From a virus: a DNA stretch of 25,221 nucleotides. The stretch is from positions 1 through 25,221 of IMG/VR virus record IMGVR_UViG_3300043465_002249, one strand, 5' to 3'. Under the pieces are notes generated by a model. The model was not told the origin of the DNA, ran no database searches, and saw only the letters and a program-made list of their open reading frames with translations. Both the position numbers and the translations under genes were made by a program. Of the stretch, positions 4,119-25,221 are shown piece after piece (the first letter of the stretch is position 1; each line of letters begins with the position of its first letter).

Positions 4119-4493
4119 TCACTTTCTCCGCTTCCCGCTGATCCCAGCGGGTGCGGGACTGTCAGGATCGGGATCTTCTGAAGGGGTGTCGGTGGTGGTT
4201 TCGGCGGGCTCGATGTCGGCGGTTTCGACGGGTTCGATCACGGGCTCCGGCCCGGCTGGTTGATCGCTGGCAACTTCCGAGGATTCCTCGGCAGCTGGCT
4301 CGACCACCCAGGCCGAGGCGGATTGTTTCCCGTTCTTCCGCAGTTCCACCGGGTTCCGGATGATCCCGAAACGGACGGCAGAACTGGCGGCCATGGCTGC
4401 ATCCGCCTCCGAGCTGACCCGGCCCATGTAGACCGGGAACGGTTTGGCGGATGGGCCGGGGCCGTCGTACCCCACAACAATAAGCAGCTTCAT
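4119..4493 (-). CDS. Small protein downstream of major capsid (FI-position), acidic tail
   Basis: This is a 124-residue protein. The N-terminal part MKLLIVVGYDGPGPSAKPFPVYMG to about residue 65 is compact, with a beta-type start. Residues about 66-118 are acidic and Pro/Glu/Thr-rich low complexity (EPVIEPVETADIEPAETTTD), ending in the basic GKRRK. It follows the major capsid gene by 29 nt, the slot of lambda FI or a decoration-type protein. The early hydrophobic residues are too short for a convincing signal peptide. Function is not recognised; a capsid accessory role is inferred from position only. Confidence 0.72.
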   Translation of the reverse strand: MKLLIVVGYDGPGPSAKPFPVYMGRVSSEADAAMAASSAVRFGIIRNPVELRKNGKQSASAWVVEPAAEESSEVASDQPAGPEPVIEPVETADIEPAETTTDTPSEDPDPDSPAPAGISGKRRK

Positions 4494-4522
4494 GAGTCAG
4501 GATGGATGGGTGGAGGAGTGTC

Positions 4523-5728
4523 TCAGGCGGTGCGAATGAGGAGACCCCCGTTGTCCGTGGCGTAGCCGACTGGGTTGGTGCCACCTTGACGACCGGCAAC
4601 ATCACCCCACAGAAGGACGGGCATGAAGGTGAGATCTCCGGTGCTTGGATCTTGAAACTTCACAGCCGACATTGTGATCCCGCTGTCAGGATCGCGCACG
4701 GTGTCGAATGCGAGGATGCTGGGGATGCCGAGAGATTGCATGATGGCATCCTGAGCGCCGTGATCTTCCGGACCGGCAAGGAAGACAATGCCGGAGGTGT
4801 CGGTGGCCAAAGCGGACACGTTTTCGCCAGCGGTCAGAACCACGTTGGTGGCATCCGTCGTCACATCCACAGAGGTTCCGGCAATGGCGTTTGCAACAGT
4901 CGTGCAAAGATACCCGCTGTCCGCCCCGAGACGGTGGAAGAAGTAGTAGTTCAAGGCCGTCAGCCCTGCACCGTTGGTGATGGAGTTCAGAATCACGCGC
5001 TGCCCGGTTTGGAAACCGTGCGCGGTTTTCGCATAGATATTGGTCGAGGCGGTAATGGCCCCGCCAGTAACCGCCGTGCCGTTGCCGGTGGGCATGTCTG
5101 GATATTCCTGAATCAGGGCAAATCCATGGGTTCCGCGCCAGCTGCGGTACCCGTCTTCTCCCTGCAGCTGACCGGCAAAGTCGCGGGACGTAAGGCGGGT
5201 GTCGGCTTGGAGAGCATCGGCCACGTTGCTGTTCACGACCATGGAGCGGCCCATGCGGGCGGCTCCTTGAATGTTCAGCTGTTTGGTGGCAGCAATCAGC
5301 ATGTCGACATCCGAATCCGCCGCCGCATAGGTGATGGCGTTGCTGAAATTCCGGCTCGTGGCATTGGCCAGCAGATCATCAATGAATGCTTTTCCAACCG
5401 CATAACCTGCGCCGCGGATGACTTCATCGTAGGCGGCTTTATCGTCCGCGATGGCGTCAATGTTTTTCATGATCAACCGAGCGCCCATCCGGCTAGTGAC
5501 AGTGACAGGGACATCTGTGAGGAGGTTCCGCGCATCGTTACCGGTGACGGCATAGGTGGTGGTGACGTTTTCCGCAACCGGCACAGTGGCGATGTGACCG
5601 GTGTAGGTTTTATTCAGGCGAATCCCGGAAGATTGGAAATTTTTGCTGAAATTGAGGGCCAGAGGAATCGACTTCCGGAAAGATCCAATGACATCCGCGA
5701 GGATTTCGGTAGGAGTAAGAGTGGGCAT
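4523..5728 (-). CDS. Major capsid protein, HK97-fold type with an inserted domain
   Basis: This is a 401-residue protein, MPTLTPTEILADVIGSFRKS onwards. It has the expected size and place (after protease and scaffold-like genes) of the shell subunit. Features typical of the coat family are an N-terminal helical arm, a Val/Thr-rich stretch (TGHIATVPVAENVTTTYAV, about 44-61), a long helix around 95-120 (DDKAAYDEVIRGAGYAVGKA) and a P-domain-like segment with VVNSNVADAL near 164-173. Residues about 213-305 look like a separate beta-rich insert (TAHGFQTGQRVIL...YYFF...SGYLCTTV), after which the core resumes at GIVFLAGPEDHG. It most resembles P22-like coats in layout, but I cannot fix the subfamily. 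Start ATG 5728 follows an A-rich leader (AATTAAAACA) without a Shine-Dalgarno. Confidence 0.85.
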   Translation of the reverse strand: MPTLTPTEILADVIGSFRKSIPLALNFSKNFQSSGIRLNKTYTGHIATVPVAENVTTTYAVTGNDARNLLTDVPVTVTSRMGARLIMKNIDAIADDKAAYDEVIRGAGYAVGKAFIDDLLANATSRNFSNAITYAAADSDVDMLIAATKQLNIQGAARMGRSMVVNSNVADALQADTRLTSRDFAGQLQGEDGYRSWRGTHGFALIQEYPDMPTGNGTAVTGGAITASTNIYAKTAHGFQTGQRVILNSITNGAGLTALNYYFFHRLGADSGYLCTTVANAIAGTSVDVTTDATNVVLTAGENVSALATDTSGIVFLAGPEDHGAQDAIMQSLGIPSILAFDTVRDPDSGITMSAVKFQDPSTGDLTFMPVLLWGDVAGRQGGTNPVGYATDNGGLLIRTA

Positions 5729-16676: not shown

Positions 16677-16924
16677 AGCACACCCCCCTTCACACGCTGA
16701 AACACCTCGCGAGCCTTCGCCAGATCCTCACCGGACACCATCACCGCCGGCACAGTCACCAGAGGCTCCAGCACCGCCAGCAATGCCGACGCCTGCTCCC
16801 GCAGCGCACGGCAATGCGCCACCAGTTCATCCTGCATCAGCCGCCCCTCAGGATCCCCCACAGCTTCGCGAATGTCCGCCAGCAGCTTCACCACCGCGTT
16901 CACCTCAGGCTCCCAGCCACTCAT
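16673..16924 (-). CDS. Small helical early protein, 83 aa
   Basis: An 83-residue, mostly helical protein starting MSGWEPEVNAVVKLLADIREAVG, with heptad-like spacing through LVAHCRALREQASALLAVLEPLV and a closing KAREVFQRVKGGVL. No motif identifies a function. It is coupled to the sliding clamp gene upstream by an ATGA overlap and to the next small gene downstream by GTGA, so it is made together with replication proteins. Confidence 0.7.
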   Translation of the reverse strand: MSGWEPEVNAVVKLLADIREAVGDPEGRLMQDELVAHCRALREQASALLAVLEPLVTVPAVMVSGEDLAKAREVFQRVKGGVL

Positions 16925-18240
16925 GCTGCACCCCCCTCGTTGCGCAGAGGCATCAGCACGCCCGTGTACTCCAGCCCCTGATCCGCCGCCGTCAGATTGG
17001 ACCGCCAGACTAGCGGCCCTTTTCCCCGCGCAGGGCCCACGTCCAACTCGCCCTGCTCACCCACACCCAGCACAGCCGCATATTCCGGATTCACGCGCAA
17101 CTCAAGCCGCGCAGCCATCATATCGTCCGCGGAGATCAACTCCGCCGTCTCCTCCCACAGGCCTACATCCGGCGCGGAAGCCCGCACCGTCACCGCCCGG
17201 CCCGCCGCCACGATCTCCACCCCCGTCGGCACCAGCATCCCAGCACGGTCACACATTTCCACCAACACCCCGCCATTCAGCTTTACCGGCTCCACCGGGC
17301 CCCCGGGGATCACCTGATAGAAATTCGGATAGTCCCCCTCGATCACCTTTGTCCACAATTCCAGCCCGCAGCCGCCCGTCACTAGCGAGATTGCGAACAC
17401 CTTCGGCTCCTCACCCGCATTGGCCGCATCCTTCTGATGCGTCCGCAGCAGCCCCACCTCCTTCCCATCAGACAGCGCCCCCAGCAGCAGCCGCACCGCA
17501 GATGTCGGCAGGATCACGTCCCAATGCTTCTCCAGCAACGCCCCCTTCACCACCCGTTCTACCACCGCCAGCCGCCTCCCATCCGTCGCCACCGCCACCA
17601 CCAACTCATCCCCCCGGAACCTCAGCAGCACCCCATTGAGCACATACCGCGTCTCATCCTTGCTCACCGCACCGGACACCGCCCCCAGCGCCTTCTTCAG
17701 CACCCCATCCACCAACTCCACCGGATGCTCCCCGCTGACACGCCCGGCCTCCAATGGATTCGGCGGGAAATCCTCCGCCGCCAACACACACAACTCCGCC
17801 TTCCACGCACCCGCACGCACCAGCAGATTCTCTCCCATGTCGATGATCACCTCCGTCGCCTCCACCTCCCCCAGCAGCTTCGCCAGGGCCGCGGCCGAGA
17901 CTGCCACCGCCGCCGGATGCCCCATCGCACCACTCACGATCGGCACCCAGACCGATGCCCACACGTCGCAATTCGTGCACGCCAGCTGCATCGCCGCACT
18001 CCCCTCCGGGATCCGCATCAGCACACAACTCAGGATCGGGAGCGTCTTGCCAGTGGCCCGCCGCACCATCCCCAGCGCGTCCGCCAGCTGCCCCGCGTTC
18101 ATCACCACTGCCTTCGGCCCCGGCAGCACCTCGGCCACCGCCACCGCCTCCTTCTTCTTACGCTCCCGCTTCGGCTTGTCCGCCACGGCCGCAGCCGCTA
18201 TCTCGGCCTTTCGGGCCTCGTCATCAGTGATCTCTTTCAT
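16921..18240 (-). CDS. dnaN: DNA polymerase III beta sliding clamp (phage DnaN)
   Basis: This is a 439-residue clamp that encircles DNA and tethers the polymerase. Residues about 48-425 are recognisable as the three-domain beta clamp: GQLADALGMVRRATGKTLPILSCVLM (50-75), the D2 hallmark ETRYVLNGVLLRFRGDELVVAVATDGRRLAVVE (about 196-228) and the D3 hallmark KVIEGDYPNFYQVIP (about 300-314). The end, TGVLMPLRNEGG, keeps the MP-x-R closing motif slightly extended. A non-clamp N-terminal extension of about 45 residues is rich in Lys/Arg/Ala (KPKRERKKKEAVAV). ATG 18240 has an AACACAAAACCAACACAA leader instead of a Shine-Dalgarno, 54 nt from the previous stop. No polymerase gene is present, so it probably recruits host Pol III or Pol IV/V. 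Confidence 0.92.
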   Translation of the reverse strand: MKEITDDEARKAEIAAAAVADKPKRERKKKEAVAVAEVLPGPKAVVMNAGQLADALGMVRRATGKTLPILSCVLMRIPEGSAAMQLACTNCDVWASVWVPIVSGAMGHPAAVAVSAAALAKLLGEVEATEVIIDMGENLLVRAGAWKAELCVLAAEDFPPNPLEAGRVSGEHPVELVDGVLKKALGAVSGAVSKDETRYVLNGVLLRFRGDELVVAVATDGRRLAVVERVVKGALLEKHWDVILPTSAVRLLLGALSDGKEVGLLRTHQKDAANAGEEPKVFAISLVTGGCGLELWTKVIEGDYPNFYQVIPGGPVEPVKLNGGVLVEMCDRAGMLVPTGVEIVAAGRAVTVRASAPDVGLWEETAELISADDMMAARLELRVNPEYAAVLGVGEQGELDVGPARGKGPLVWRSNLTAADQGLEYTGVLMPLRNEGGAA

Positions 18241-21718: not shown

Positions 21719-22216
21719 TCAGCGGCCATACCCGGCTAATAACTTGTCGTCATTCAGCCCCTCCCACTCCCGCCAGAGCAGCCGCCCACCACGCCTCGGC
21801 GACGGCTCCACCCCGCCGCCATCACTGCACATATCCAACCGCTTCAGCGCCTCACTGAACGCCCGGTCCTCCTCATCATTCGCAGCGGCCACCTGCGATT
21901 CTTCTTCCGCCAATTCCGACAGCGCCGCCGCCGCTCGCGTCAGCGCGCCCCGCGTATTCTCATAGTTCAGCCCGCAACTCGGCGCACCCACCCCAAGCAG
22001 CACCAACCGGTCCTCTTCATCATTCGCCGCCGCCTCATCAGACACCCGCACCCGCGCCACACCAGCCGCCGCCTCATCAGCCGCCCAGCGCTTCCTATCC
22101 GCTTCCCACTGCGCCAATCCCTCGCGCTGCGCCGCCTCCAGCGCATCCAGCCGCAGGCCTATCTCGGCCAATCCGGCTTCCAGCCTATCCAGCTTTTCTT
22201 CAGTGGTGAGTTCCAT
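21719..22216 (-). CDS. Coiled-coil early protein with an internal repeat
   Basis: A 165-residue acidic protein. Residues 1-50 form a coiled coil (TTEEKLDRLEAGLAEIGLRLDALEAAQREGLAQ). The nine-residue unit AAANDEEDR occurs twice, at about 62-70 (then LVLLGVG) and 109-117 (then AFSEAL), each in a helical context, so the protein may have arisen by an internal duplication. C-terminal residues RLLWREWEGLNDDKLLAGYGR are polar. No family is recognised. ATG 22216 has the CTTTCACCACACGCACACC leader and no Shine-Dalgarno. It begins the run of overlapping genes that ends with the clamp and primase genes, 172 nt after the RHH gene. Confidence 0.7.
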   Translation of the reverse strand: MELTTEEKLDRLEAGLAEIGLRLDALEAAQREGLAQWEADRKRWAADEAAAGVARVRVSDEAAANDEEDRLVLLGVGAPSCGLNYENTRGALTRAAAALSELAEEESQVAAANDEEDRAFSEALKRLDMCSDGGGVEPSPRRGGRLLWREWEGLNDDKLLAGYGR

Positions 22217-22388: not shown

Positions 22389-22562
22389 TCAGGCCGCAGC
22401 CCGCACCTCAGCCGCCACGGCGACCAGTGCCTCCTTGATCAGCTGCACCAGCGGCACCCGCCGCTTCACCGCCTCAGCCTTCAGCGTCTCCCGCACCTCC
22501 TCCGGGAGAGCCTTGAGGATCTTGCTGGTTTCCACCTCGATTTCGACGTTATTTGCGCTCAT
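22389..22562 (-). CDS. 57-aa ribbon-helix-helix (Arc/CopG-like) regulator
   Basis: A short minus-strand gene of 57 residues, MSANNVEIEVETSKILKALP then EEVRETLKAEAVKRRVPLVQLIKEALVAVAAEV. The N-terminal strand VEIEVETSKI followed by helix EEVRETLKAEAVKR, the turn RVPL and helix VQLIKEALVAVA give the ribbon-helix-helix fold of small DNA-binding dimers. It is the first gene of the early direction and faces the plus-strand repressor across about 110 bp, the place of a Cro-like protein. Its ATG lies inside a TTTGCG/CGCAAA dyad, suggesting autoregulation. Followed by a 172-nt structured spacer before the early operon. Confidence 0.78.
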   Translation of the reverse strand: MSANNVEIEVETSKILKALPEEVRETLKAEAVKRRVPLVQLIKEALVAVAAEVRAAA

Positions 22563-22653
22563 GACGCAAAGAAATACACGGAAAGCGCATTCCGTCCACC
22601 TAAAAATACACGAAATTGCGCGTTACGGTTCCGGACTTGCGCGATTCGCGTAA
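22552..22653. promoter_or_regulatory. Divergent operator region with several dyads and repeats
   Basis: The spacer between the divergent RHH and HTH-RHH genes contains three dyads: TTTGCG-N7-CGCAAA (22552-22570), ACGGAAAGCGCATTCCGT (22578-22595, one mismatched central pair), and TTGCGCGATTCGCGTAA (22637-22653, near-perfect). The hexamer TTGCGC recurs at 22553, 22616 and 22637, spaced 63 and 21 bp (whole helical turns). The nonamer AAATACACG occurs at 22572-22580 and 22604-22612, followed by a shared GAAA..GCGC. No confident -35/-10 pair could be assigned on either strand; promoters for both operons must lie here. Confidence 0.65.
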
Positions 22654-22673
22654 TGGTGCATCCTCGCCCCATC

Positions 22674-23087
22674 ATGACACCCGATGAGATCAAAGACTGG
22701 CTCAAAGCCACCAACCGCACCCGAGACACCCTAGCCTCTGAGCTGGGGTACTCGAAACGCACAGTCGATAACTGGTTCACCTCTGGCGACATTCCTCTCC
22801 CTGCCATTCTTCACATTAAACGAATCCGAATGAGTGAGGACGGCGGGGCCAAACTTCGCTTTTCCCTGGACGAGTGGGATCAGATCGAGGCCGCCCGGAA
22901 ACTCGCCGGTTACGACGATCGCAGCCAATTCATGGTCGCCGCCCTCACATCATTCGCCTCCGGCATCACCAAGACCCCAGCCAGCTACCTCTCCATCGTC
23001 CCCGCAGATTCCTCCAAGGTCGCCGAAGACCCACCGGACACATCCCCACCACCACCGCCGAAGCCCCGCAAATCCGGTCGTTTTTGA
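22674..23087 (+). CDS. Probable phage repressor: XRE-like HTH fused to an RHH-like segment
   Basis: This is a 137-residue plus-strand protein. Residues 4-45 form a helix-turn-helix (EIKDWLKATNRTRDTLASELGYSKRTVDNWFTSG) of the XRE/Cro-CI style. Residues about 59-97 (AKLRFSLDEWDQIEAARKLAGYDDRSQFMVAALTSFA) have the strand-helix-turn-helix pattern of a ribbon-helix-helix domain. The tail (118-137) is Pro-rich and basic (PPPPPKPRKSGRF). There is no LexA/CI-type self-cleaving peptidase domain, so RecA-driven cleavage is unlikely; induction may use another signal or the 57-aa RHH protein. Two in-frame ATGs exist, 22653 and 22674; neither has a Shine-Dalgarno, and 22653 overlaps a dyad, so I prefer 22674. 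It is transcribed away from the early operon and is followed by one more gene and a terminator. Confidence 0.72.
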   Translation: MTPDEIKDWLKATNRTRDTLASELGYSKRTVDNWFTSGDIPLPAILHIKRIRMSEDGGAKLRFSLDEWDQIEAARKLAGYDDRSQFMVAALTSFASGITKTPASYLSIVPADSSKVAEDPPDTSPPPPPKPRKSGRF

Positions 23088-23115: not shown

Positions 23116-23625
23116 ATGAGCACACCACAATTCAGCATCGGAGACCGCGTGGAAGTCCGCGAAAACGAAGGCTTCGTCATCAAGGGAAAAGATATGTCAG
23201 GATTTCTGTTTTCCGGAACCGTCACCGCGTTGGATGTTGCCGGCGGGCAGATAGCCGTTCGCGACGACGAGGAGGGAGAGATTTTCCACTGCCGCCCCGA
23301 TGAACTCCGCCGCATCACCCCGCCACCACAAGACAGCCCCCACCATGCCCGCATCATTCGCGAAGAGTCCGCCAGGACCTTTGCCAGACTCCAGCGCCAC
23401 CCAGCGCTTCAGCCTGAAACCATAGCCGCCCATTACCTCGCGATGATGAACACGGCACTTCACCTGCAAAAGCTGATTGACTTTCAGAGGCAATCCCGGG
23501 AACCGTCTTCTGAGTCGGACCGAATCATTCAGGCCATGACGGCCCAGATCGCCGAGGCCCACCGCAAGGATTTCGGCATTGATCTGGATTGGTCATCCTT
23601 CCCCACATCTGCCGCCCAGCACTGA
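23116..23625 (+). CDS. Hypothetical protein downstream of the repressor
   Basis: This is a 169-residue plus-strand protein. Residues about 7-65 look like a small beta-barrel: IGDRVEVRENEGFVIKG, then GTVTALDVAGGQIAVRDDEEGEIFHCRPDELRRI, suggestive of an SH3-like or translation-type fold. Residues about 75-165 are helical (ESARTFARLQRHPAL, HYLAMMNTALHLQKLIDFQRQ) with an acidic end. The family is not recognised. It lies 28 nt after the repressor, with a CA-rich leader (CAACCAACCACAACA), so it is probably expressed in the lysogen. It could be lysogenic-conversion cargo or a second regulator; the function is unknown. Confidence 0.75.
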   Translation: MSTPQFSIGDRVEVRENEGFVIKGKDMSGFLFSGTVTALDVAGGQIAVRDDEEGEIFHCRPDELRRITPPPQDSPHHARIIREESARTFARLQRHPALQPETIAAHYLAMMNTALHLQKLIDFQRQSREPSSESDRIIQAMTAQIAEAHRKDFGIDLDWSSFPTSAAQH

Positions 23626-24286: not shown

Positions 24287-24498
24287 CCGCACCCCCTACC
24301 ATCTCCGCCCCGTTTTTCCAGCCGCAACTTTCCGGTCCGCCGCGTCAGGCACCGCCGCGCCATGCGGATTTCAGCCAGCAGATCCAGCGCCACGGCTTCC
24401 AGACGTTCCATCTGCTCATCAGCCGCCCGCCGCATCGCCGCCAGCTGCTGGCGCATCGGCTCGTTCGTCTCCTCCTGCGGTTTGCGGTGTCGGCTCAT
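24283..24498 (-). CDS. Small basic coiled-coil protein overlapping the integrase gene
   Basis: A 71-residue basic protein, MSRHRKPQEETNEPMRQQLA, then a helix RRAADEQMERLEAVALDLLAEIRMARRCL with coiled-coil spacing, and a basic end (RRTGKLRLEKRGG). Its start lies inside the 3' end of the integrase gene, an 80-nt overlap in another frame. Its stop is ATGA-coupled to the secreted-protein gene, which supports it being real. The role is unknown; size and charge are compatible with a recombination directionality factor, but no excisionase motif is seen. Confidence 0.58.
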   Translation of the reverse strand: MSRHRKPQEETNEPMRQQLAAMRRAADEQMERLEAVALDLLAEIRMARRCLTRRTGKLRLEKRGGDGRGCG

Positions 24499-25221
24499 TT
24501 ATTGACGTTGCCACATTCCCGGCAGGAGACGCAACAGGATTTCCACCCAGCACCGCCGCCGCCGCCCGGAGCGCATCCAGTCCCACGGTGGTGTAGATTT
24601 TGCCAGTGTCGCCACTATGTCCTATTAAGGCATCAATCACCGCCTTTGGCTGCCCCGCCTCCTCCAGCCACGTCCTCGCGGTATGCCTCAGGCTATGGAA
24701 GCTCAGCTCATGCTGTTCCCGCGTTGCCCCCGCATCATCCTCACGACGCTTCGGCTGCCGGCCATAGGGATTGATTGCCCGCAGCCCCGCCAACCAGAGC
24801 GCGTGAGCAAACGCCTTTGAGATGCTCCCCACATACCCCTTTGCCGCCTCCACTTCCGCCACCAGCTCCGGAAACACCGCCCCCCGCACAGCACTCCCGC
24901 ACCGCTCCGCCAGATCCCGCACCACATCCTCCGGCAGCGGCACCACCAGCCGCTTCGATGTTTTCCCAGTCGTCAGCACCCACAGCCCAGCACTCAGATC
25001 CAGCCGGGCCCAATCCATGCGGATCAGATCCCCCAGCCGTTGACCGGTCACCAGGCCCAGCCGCACCAGCAGCCGCCAATCCGGATCACACACCGCCAGC
25101 ACACGGCCAAGCTCCTCCCGGGTGAATGGCCTGCGCTTCCGCTCCTCCGGACTGCCCCTCTCCTTCTTCAGCGCCCGGAGGCCCTCGGTGGGATCCCGCC
25201 GCAGATAGCCCCGCGCCACCG
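24419..25221 (-). CDS. int: Tyrosine recombinase (phage integrase), cut by the right edge
   Basis: The catalytic domain of a tyrosine integrase, which joins attP and attB to insert or excise the prophage. Numbered from the visible codon at 25219, the active-site residues are all present: Arg61 in TGQRLGD, Lys86 in TTGKTSKR, His175 and Arg178 in HSLRHT, His201 in IGHSGD and nucleophile Tyr209 in GKIYTT. The first residues match the end of an N-terminal SAM-like core-binding domain (ARGYLRRDPTEGL), so the true start lies beyond the window; the GTG at 25219 is not taken as the start. A polar tail of about 57 residues after the tyrosine is longer than usual and overlaps the next gene. No att core can be identified without the other junction. 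Confidence 0.95.
   Translation of the reverse strand, partial: VARGYLRRDPTEGLRALKKERGSPEERKRRPFTREELGRVLAVCDPDWRLLVRLGLVTGQRLGDLIRMDWARLDLSAGLWVLTTGKTSKRLVVPLPEDVVRDLAERCGSAVRGAVFPELVAEVEAAKGYVGSISKAFAHALWLAGLRAINPYGRQPKRREDDAGATREQHELSFHSLRHTARTWLEEAGQPKAVIDALIGHSGDTGKIYTTVGLDALRAAAAVLGGNPVASPAGNVATSINEPTPQTAGGDERADAPAAGGDAAGG

Follow-up and report, generated by a model that had tools for sequence, protein, structure and literature searches.

The stretch of viral DNA analyzed here (the window, 25,221 bp) belongs to the record of a temperate phage, in which a candidate lysis-lysogeny switch and an integrase gene lie near the right end. The features at and around the switch were as follows.

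21719..22216, minus strand: next gene of the leftward (lytic/early) operon; ORF, with weak and uninformative family matches
22389..22562, minus strand: gene for a 57-aa protein with only a putative ribbon-helix-helix (RHH) fold, in the Cro position, first gene of the leftward operon; ORF
22563..22673: divergent control region, 111 bp, between both start codons
22579..22594: operator-like site 1, CGGAAAGCGCATTCCG, near-perfect dyad
22611..22627: operator-like site 2, CGAAATTGCGCGTTACG, imperfect dyad; center-to-center distance to site 1, about 32 bp
22632..22648: operator-like site 3, CGGACTTGCGCGATTCG, imperfect dyad; center-to-center distance to site 2, about 21 bp
22674..23087, plus strand: gene for the predicted helix-turn-helix (HTH)-RHH repressor, in the CI position, 137 aa, without peptidase; ORF (ATG at 22674), homology and AlphaFold model
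22674..22838, plus strand: N-terminal HTH, residues 1-55; four helices and structural match
22842..22967, plus strand: predicted RHH segment, residues 57-98 (strand at ca. 58-63, helices 65-78 and 83-98); AlphaFold, and Pfam and PDB matches via relatives
22968..23084, plus strand: proline-rich tail, mostly of low confidence, occupying the place of the relatives' S24 peptidase
23116..23625, plus strand: gene for a 169-aa protein, downstream of the repressor and in its direction; ORF
24419..25219, minus strand: tyrosine integrase, truncated by the window end; PF00589, 1.9e-17

A twin contig of 35,130 bp (L002) was identical to the window over the 8,548 bp compared and encoded an integrase of 444 aa. 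The 57-codon gene heads a series of leftward genes that runs toward replication and structural functions (the far functions were judged partly by eye), and it has a GC3 of 0.83 and codon positions like those of the neighboring genes. On the same strand, at 16921-18240, a 439-aa phage protein resembles the sliding clamp of DNA polymerase (DnaN), by eye only. The 169-aa protein, encoded in what is probably the repressor's operon, did not match any family of known function. A previous sequence-only reading had described the repressor and the small gene as facing each other; both ORFs were where it had placed them, but transcription of the two genes diverges from starts 111 bp apart, so that "divergent" is the correct word. 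Its suggestion that this is the position of a lysogeny switch was supported, the spacer has operator-like repeats, and the whole layout recurs in distant relatives.

The repressor was modeled with AlphaFold2 using a 15-sequence alignment of homologues. Four helices over residues 3-55 made up the HTH (pLDDT of 93-96 up to residue 50), which matched XRE/Cro-type domains of the Aca10/HigA2 type with Z of about 8 and gave weak matches to Phage_CI_repr and other HTH families. Where an RHH fold had been expected (residues 59-97), the model showed an extended stretch followed by helices 65-78 and 83-98, with pLDDT values of 90-94, and in the tail these values were 49-55 at residues 101-120. Scanned alone against Pfam, the window's own segment gave no match, and its assignment to the RHH fold is therefore based on the alignment with relatives and on the model. 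When the aligned RHH segments of 26 relatives were scanned singly, they matched mostly RHH families, NikA-like in 6 of the 26 (best, 2.6e-5) and otherwise DUF6290, TacA1, RHH_1, RHH_3, RHH_10, ParD and CopG_antitoxin. A profile of the same 26 segments matched the solved RHH antitoxins KacA (0.0014) and MazE6 (0.006) in the PDB; designed repeat proteins in the same match list were judged to be composition artifacts. Foldseek and VIA searches with the whole repressor model returned HTH proteins almost exclusively, but a whole-model search is dominated by the HTH, so that the missing RHH is no evidence against such a fold. As modeled and as compared with relatives, segment 57-98 fits a strand-helix-helix arrangement with the RHH sequence pattern, in agreement with the HTH-RHH fusion proposed earlier. 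The proposed lack of a self-cleaving domain was also confirmed, since no S24 peptidase (PF00717) was present in the window or in the 35-kb twin contig. At the outward strand position, the repressor RHHs had Asp or Glu in 12 of the 26 and Arg or Lys in 4, and an acidic residue there would suit dimerization more than DNA contact in many of them. The window repressor, with Lys and Arg at its outward strand positions, is a possible exception whose RHH may touch DNA.

The small protein matched no HTH family, and its best Pfam match was CopG_antitoxin at an E value of 0.0015, below Pfam's cut-off. In a Foldseek search with its model, nearly all matches were RHH proteins (VapB, PutA, CdbA, CopG, ParG, Arc, MazE6 and AmrZ), with no E value of <1 (Arc, 7.8), poor values that are explained by so short a protein. 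The N-terminal strand was modeled as a low-confidence helix in the monomer, in which the ribbon is not visible, and for this reason the protein was called RHH by its two helices and its family resemblance. A profile of 20 such small proteins weakly matched AvtR, PutA and MazE7. Trained without the tested locus and its close relatives, a leave-one-out profile ranked the window protein first of 61 neighborhood ORFs (E value of 8.6e-6). The fold matches, the CopG_antitoxin hit and this rank bear out the 57-residue RHH partner that had been read from the sequence.

The same arrangement was found again in Akkermansia phages, viral contigs and genomes of Verrucomicrobiota. In a tblastn search of 50,697 phages, the HTH-RHH repressor type appeared only in three Akkermansia phages, namely, Chambord and Chantilly, which have the order HTH-RHH-S24 (PF00717), and Moulinsart, with HTH-RHH only; the other matches were to the HTH alone or to short records without annotation. 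Among 84,980 prokaryote species scanned, there were six loci, all labeled Akkermansiaceae or Verrucomicrobiaceae, and viral contigs contributed 21 loci with the HTH-RHH family. Finding the relatives needed a four-sequence alignment, as the single-sequence query (P0001) had no match among genome contigs. Across genomes sampled from Verrucomicrobiota, the family was present in 31 of 289, with up to 15 copies per genome. Four of them (G001, G029, G087 and G116) had 12-15 HTH-RHH regulators each, some in tandem (e.g., G116 C1:1568239-1569610), and such high copy numbers suggest a lineage-specific expansion beyond prophages. The window terminase had no match in the 289 genomes and otherwise matched only distant phage terminases; the assignment of a host thus comes from the switch proteins alone, and the host of the window phage is probably a member of the Verrucomicrobiota.

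Beside phage-type copies of the repressor, the divergent small ORF was RHH-like in about 20 distinct loci (by eye), usually 80-160 bp from the repressor. These small proteins are very divergent in sequence, and in most loci examined, they occupy the Cro position. In 15 of 20 loci, the window included, leave-one-out profiles placed the small ORF at the top of the 21-77 ORFs compared; the locus sets were assembled by hand, which favors the hypothesis somewhat. There were departures from this layout: in L047, L051, L052 and L053, all HTH-RHH-S24, the divergent neighbor was a membrane-like protein of about 108 aa in place of the RHH protein; no small gene was recognized in the partner position of L009, L027 and L040; and the host-chromosomal copies L057 and L060-L062 were without a partner. 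Two of the small RHH-like ORFs are unannotated in GenBank (Moulinsart, L006, 3594-3869, minus strand; Chantilly, L005, 3662-3844, minus strand). Phanotate ORFs opposite to them in these records were judged to be miscalls. In Chambord, a further gene (WAK78975, 109 aa; L073, 1347-1676, minus strand; 4346-4675 in the record) is also related to the HTH-RHH repressors and lies close to the other side of the phage's regulatory region.

In the spacers, we searched for three similar near-palindromes against dinucleotide shuffles, with correction over five widths. The repeats of the window spacer had a p value of 0.03, weak when taken alone, and sites 2 and 3 are poor dyads; for site 3, the next best match within the window had 3 mismatches. 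Over all spacers, 14 of 21 reached a p value of 0.05 or less, with a combined p value of 7e-14 that treats the spacers as independent, though a few are related. A spacing of 31-34 bp was found in 10 of the 14 significant spacers, compared with 9% of the spacings in shuffles. Chambord had a p value of 0.05, and Chantilly and Moulinsart were not significant. A scan of the window spacer for sigma-70 promoters, little informative for this host, found none.

Which part of the repressor reads these sites was evaluated with five relatives of the Chambord type, which share 84-94% identity with the first of them over the first 110 residues. Their repressors vary at 8 of 15 recognition-helix positions versus 4 of 40 RHH positions (p = 0.0015), and their spacers vary at 57 of 76 central positions versus 14 of 53 flank positions. 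Loci L018, L019 and L021 have identical small proteins; between L021 and the other two, the repressor RHHs are nearly identical, while the HTHs and the spacer centers differ. Given that the operators change with the HTH and the RHH parts do not, the HTH is probably what recognizes the operators, and the function of both RHHs probably does not vary. The repressor RHH is probably the dimerization part.

From the domains of the two proteins, the recurring gene pair and the operator repeats, we infer that the locus is a temperate-phage lysis-lysogeny switch with an HTH-RHH repressor and an RHH-only gene in the Cro position (probability of about 0.72). The product of the plus-strand gene would be the prophage repressor, whose HTH would read the three related sites in the spacer and shut the leftward early promoter. 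Its RHH would most likely form a dimer or a higher complex; lambda CI dimerizes through its C-terminal domain. The RHH-only product would most likely act as a small dimer that binds to this spacer as well and turns down the repressor promoter once the leftward operon is on. In relatives, the S24 peptidase that follows the RHH would give RecA-type induction. As S24 is absent from the window, induction of this phage must take another route; spontaneous loss is one possibility, and interference from a different protein, perhaps the RHH-only product, is another.

The Akkermansia muciniphila YL44 phages fit this expectation. Two prophages of this strain are mitomycin-C inducible, with log2 changes of 4.41 and 4.19 (PMC8008629), and phage 2 of that study has 36,894 bp, the same as the Chantilly record. 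Chambord and Chantilly are marked as the phages of the mitomycin study, with Moulinsart unmarked; the latter was found in particles from untreated cultures, with a signal in vitro that was absent in vivo (PMC10197239). No S24 domain was found anywhere in the Moulinsart genome. Its other annotated "repressor" and "toxin" look, by eye, like a HicB/HicA pair. The S24-bearing phages were thus mitomycin induced and the S24-less one is without such a report, a contrast among three phages only, which fits because the architecture predicts it. By the same rule, the window phage should not be SOS inducible via its repressor.

The simplest form of the switch that we prefer is that the small protein is a plain Cro analogue making no contact with the repressor, its dimer binding sites of its own via the ribbon and shutting the repressor promoter. 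We give this form even odds. The position, size and apparent RHH fold of the small protein agree with it, and so does the conservation of the spacer flanks in the Chambord group, whose small proteins hardly vary. There is a precedent in P22, where the RHH proteins Arc and Mnt regulate the immI region. Against it, no RHH operator was identified, and the repeats that were found track the HTH and not the RHH.

An alternative that we regard as unlikely, though with several points in its favor, is anti-repression by mixed dimers, in which the RHH-only protein would pair with the repressor RHH, break the homodimer and lift repression. Mor of TP901-1 blocks CI in a similar way, but the contact would here be made through the dimerization domain. 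The profiles of the repressor RHH and the small protein matched with an hhalign probability of 91%, whereas none of 120 column-shuffled controls exceeded 1.2% and a comparison with the HTH part gave about 1%. The repressor and the small protein also co-diverge (mirror r, 0.66), although linkage alone would predict that. Moreover, a peptidase-less repressor needs another off-switch, and TP901-1 CI, which is also without a peptidase, is opposed by Mor (PMC11149083). However, cognate pairs of small protein and repressor RHH were not closer than non-cognate pairs (p = 0.72), which speaks against mixed dimers. It also indicates that the small protein is no recent copy of the repressor RHH, and within-phage paralogy of the two was discarded as unsupported. 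Furthermore, the small gene is retained where the repressor has S24, and so it is not there to replace self-cleavage. A doubtful variant is that the RHH-only protein swaps into the repressor RHH dimer, either splitting the paired HTHs (anti-repression) or redirecting them to other sites (co-repression); if true, S24-less phages would depend on RHH exchange, and not on SOS cleavage, for induction.

It is very unlikely, in our view, that the repressor segment is just a helical hairpin that happens to follow an ordinary HTH. The single-sequence matches were weak, with none for the window's own segment, and the whole-model search was dominated by the HTH, but many independent relatives matched RHH families and solved RHH antitoxins, the pLDDT of the segment was high, and its match to the small-protein profile was far above the shuffled controls. 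Least probable of all is that the small protein is an orphan type II antitoxin lying beside the repressor by chance, as its best Pfam match might indicate, since no toxin family was recognized among the neighboring ORFs scanned, the gene recurs divergently beside the same repressor type in unrelated phages, and the likely toxin-antitoxin pair of Moulinsart (HicA/HicB-like) lies elsewhere.

The molecular detail of lysogeny switches comes from few phages, mostly of Proteobacteria and Firmicutes. With the switch described here, phages and prophages of Akkermansia and other Verrucomicrobiota would have a distinct architecture. Its predictions cover the response of prophages to DNA damage (yes with S24, no without it) and the operator sequences, and it points to an overlooked small gene. 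It would also provide a natural series in which the DNA-reading, dimer and cleavage parts of a repressor come apart.

The window shares the features of the HTH-RHH(+/-S24) family, that is, an HTH followed by an RHH and a divergent small RHH-like gene. Chambord and Chantilly (ON453894 and ON453895) have the same HTH-RHH order, 31-32% identity and a divergent small RHH-like gene, but they carry a C-terminal S24 and are mitomycin-C inducible; their records give "transcriptional repressor" only, with the RHH not noted. The Moulinsart regulator (ON453896, WAK79094) is likewise HTH-RHH without a peptidase and faces an RHH-like ORF that the record leaves unannotated, although its identity to the window repressor is only 31%. 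As in lambda CI/Cro, a divergent repressor and a small lytic gene surround a shared control region, here a spacer of 111 bp, and the three related operators of lambda have a counterpart in three predicted operator-like repeats (p = 0.03). The parts differ, as Cro is an HTH protein whereas an RHH-like protein is in the Cro position of the window, and CI has HTH and S24 whereas the window repressor has an RHH and no S24. The earlier statement that the switch is built differently from CI/Cro is thus right for the parts and not for the layout, since the classic switch also has divergent genes and three operators.

RHH proteins also govern phage development in P22, but Arc and Mnt have no HTH fusion, and they act on an antirepressor gene, next to which P22 has a separate C2/Cro switch. 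By profile and fold match, the small protein resembles RHH proteins, Arc included, and it may be a stand-alone regulator of this type, although the strand that would read DNA does not appear in its monomer model. In TP901-1 (and phage phi13), a small protein opposes a peptidase-less HTH repressor at three palindromic sites, and the C-terminal domain is exchanged among phages while the partner gene is kept; however, Mor has an HTH fold and targets the HTH of CI, compared with the RHH-like partner in the window, and the dimer domain of CI is a helical hook and not an RHH. In the open literature searched, we found the RHH phage regulators Arc, Mnt (PMC10516654, PMC4634304) and YosL as well as CI:Mor, and neither an HTH-RHH lysogeny repressor nor an RHH-only Cro was described there. 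Because this layout is seen again in phages as well as prophages of Akkermansia and related bacteria, the switch looks like a real, so far undescribed version of CI/Cro.
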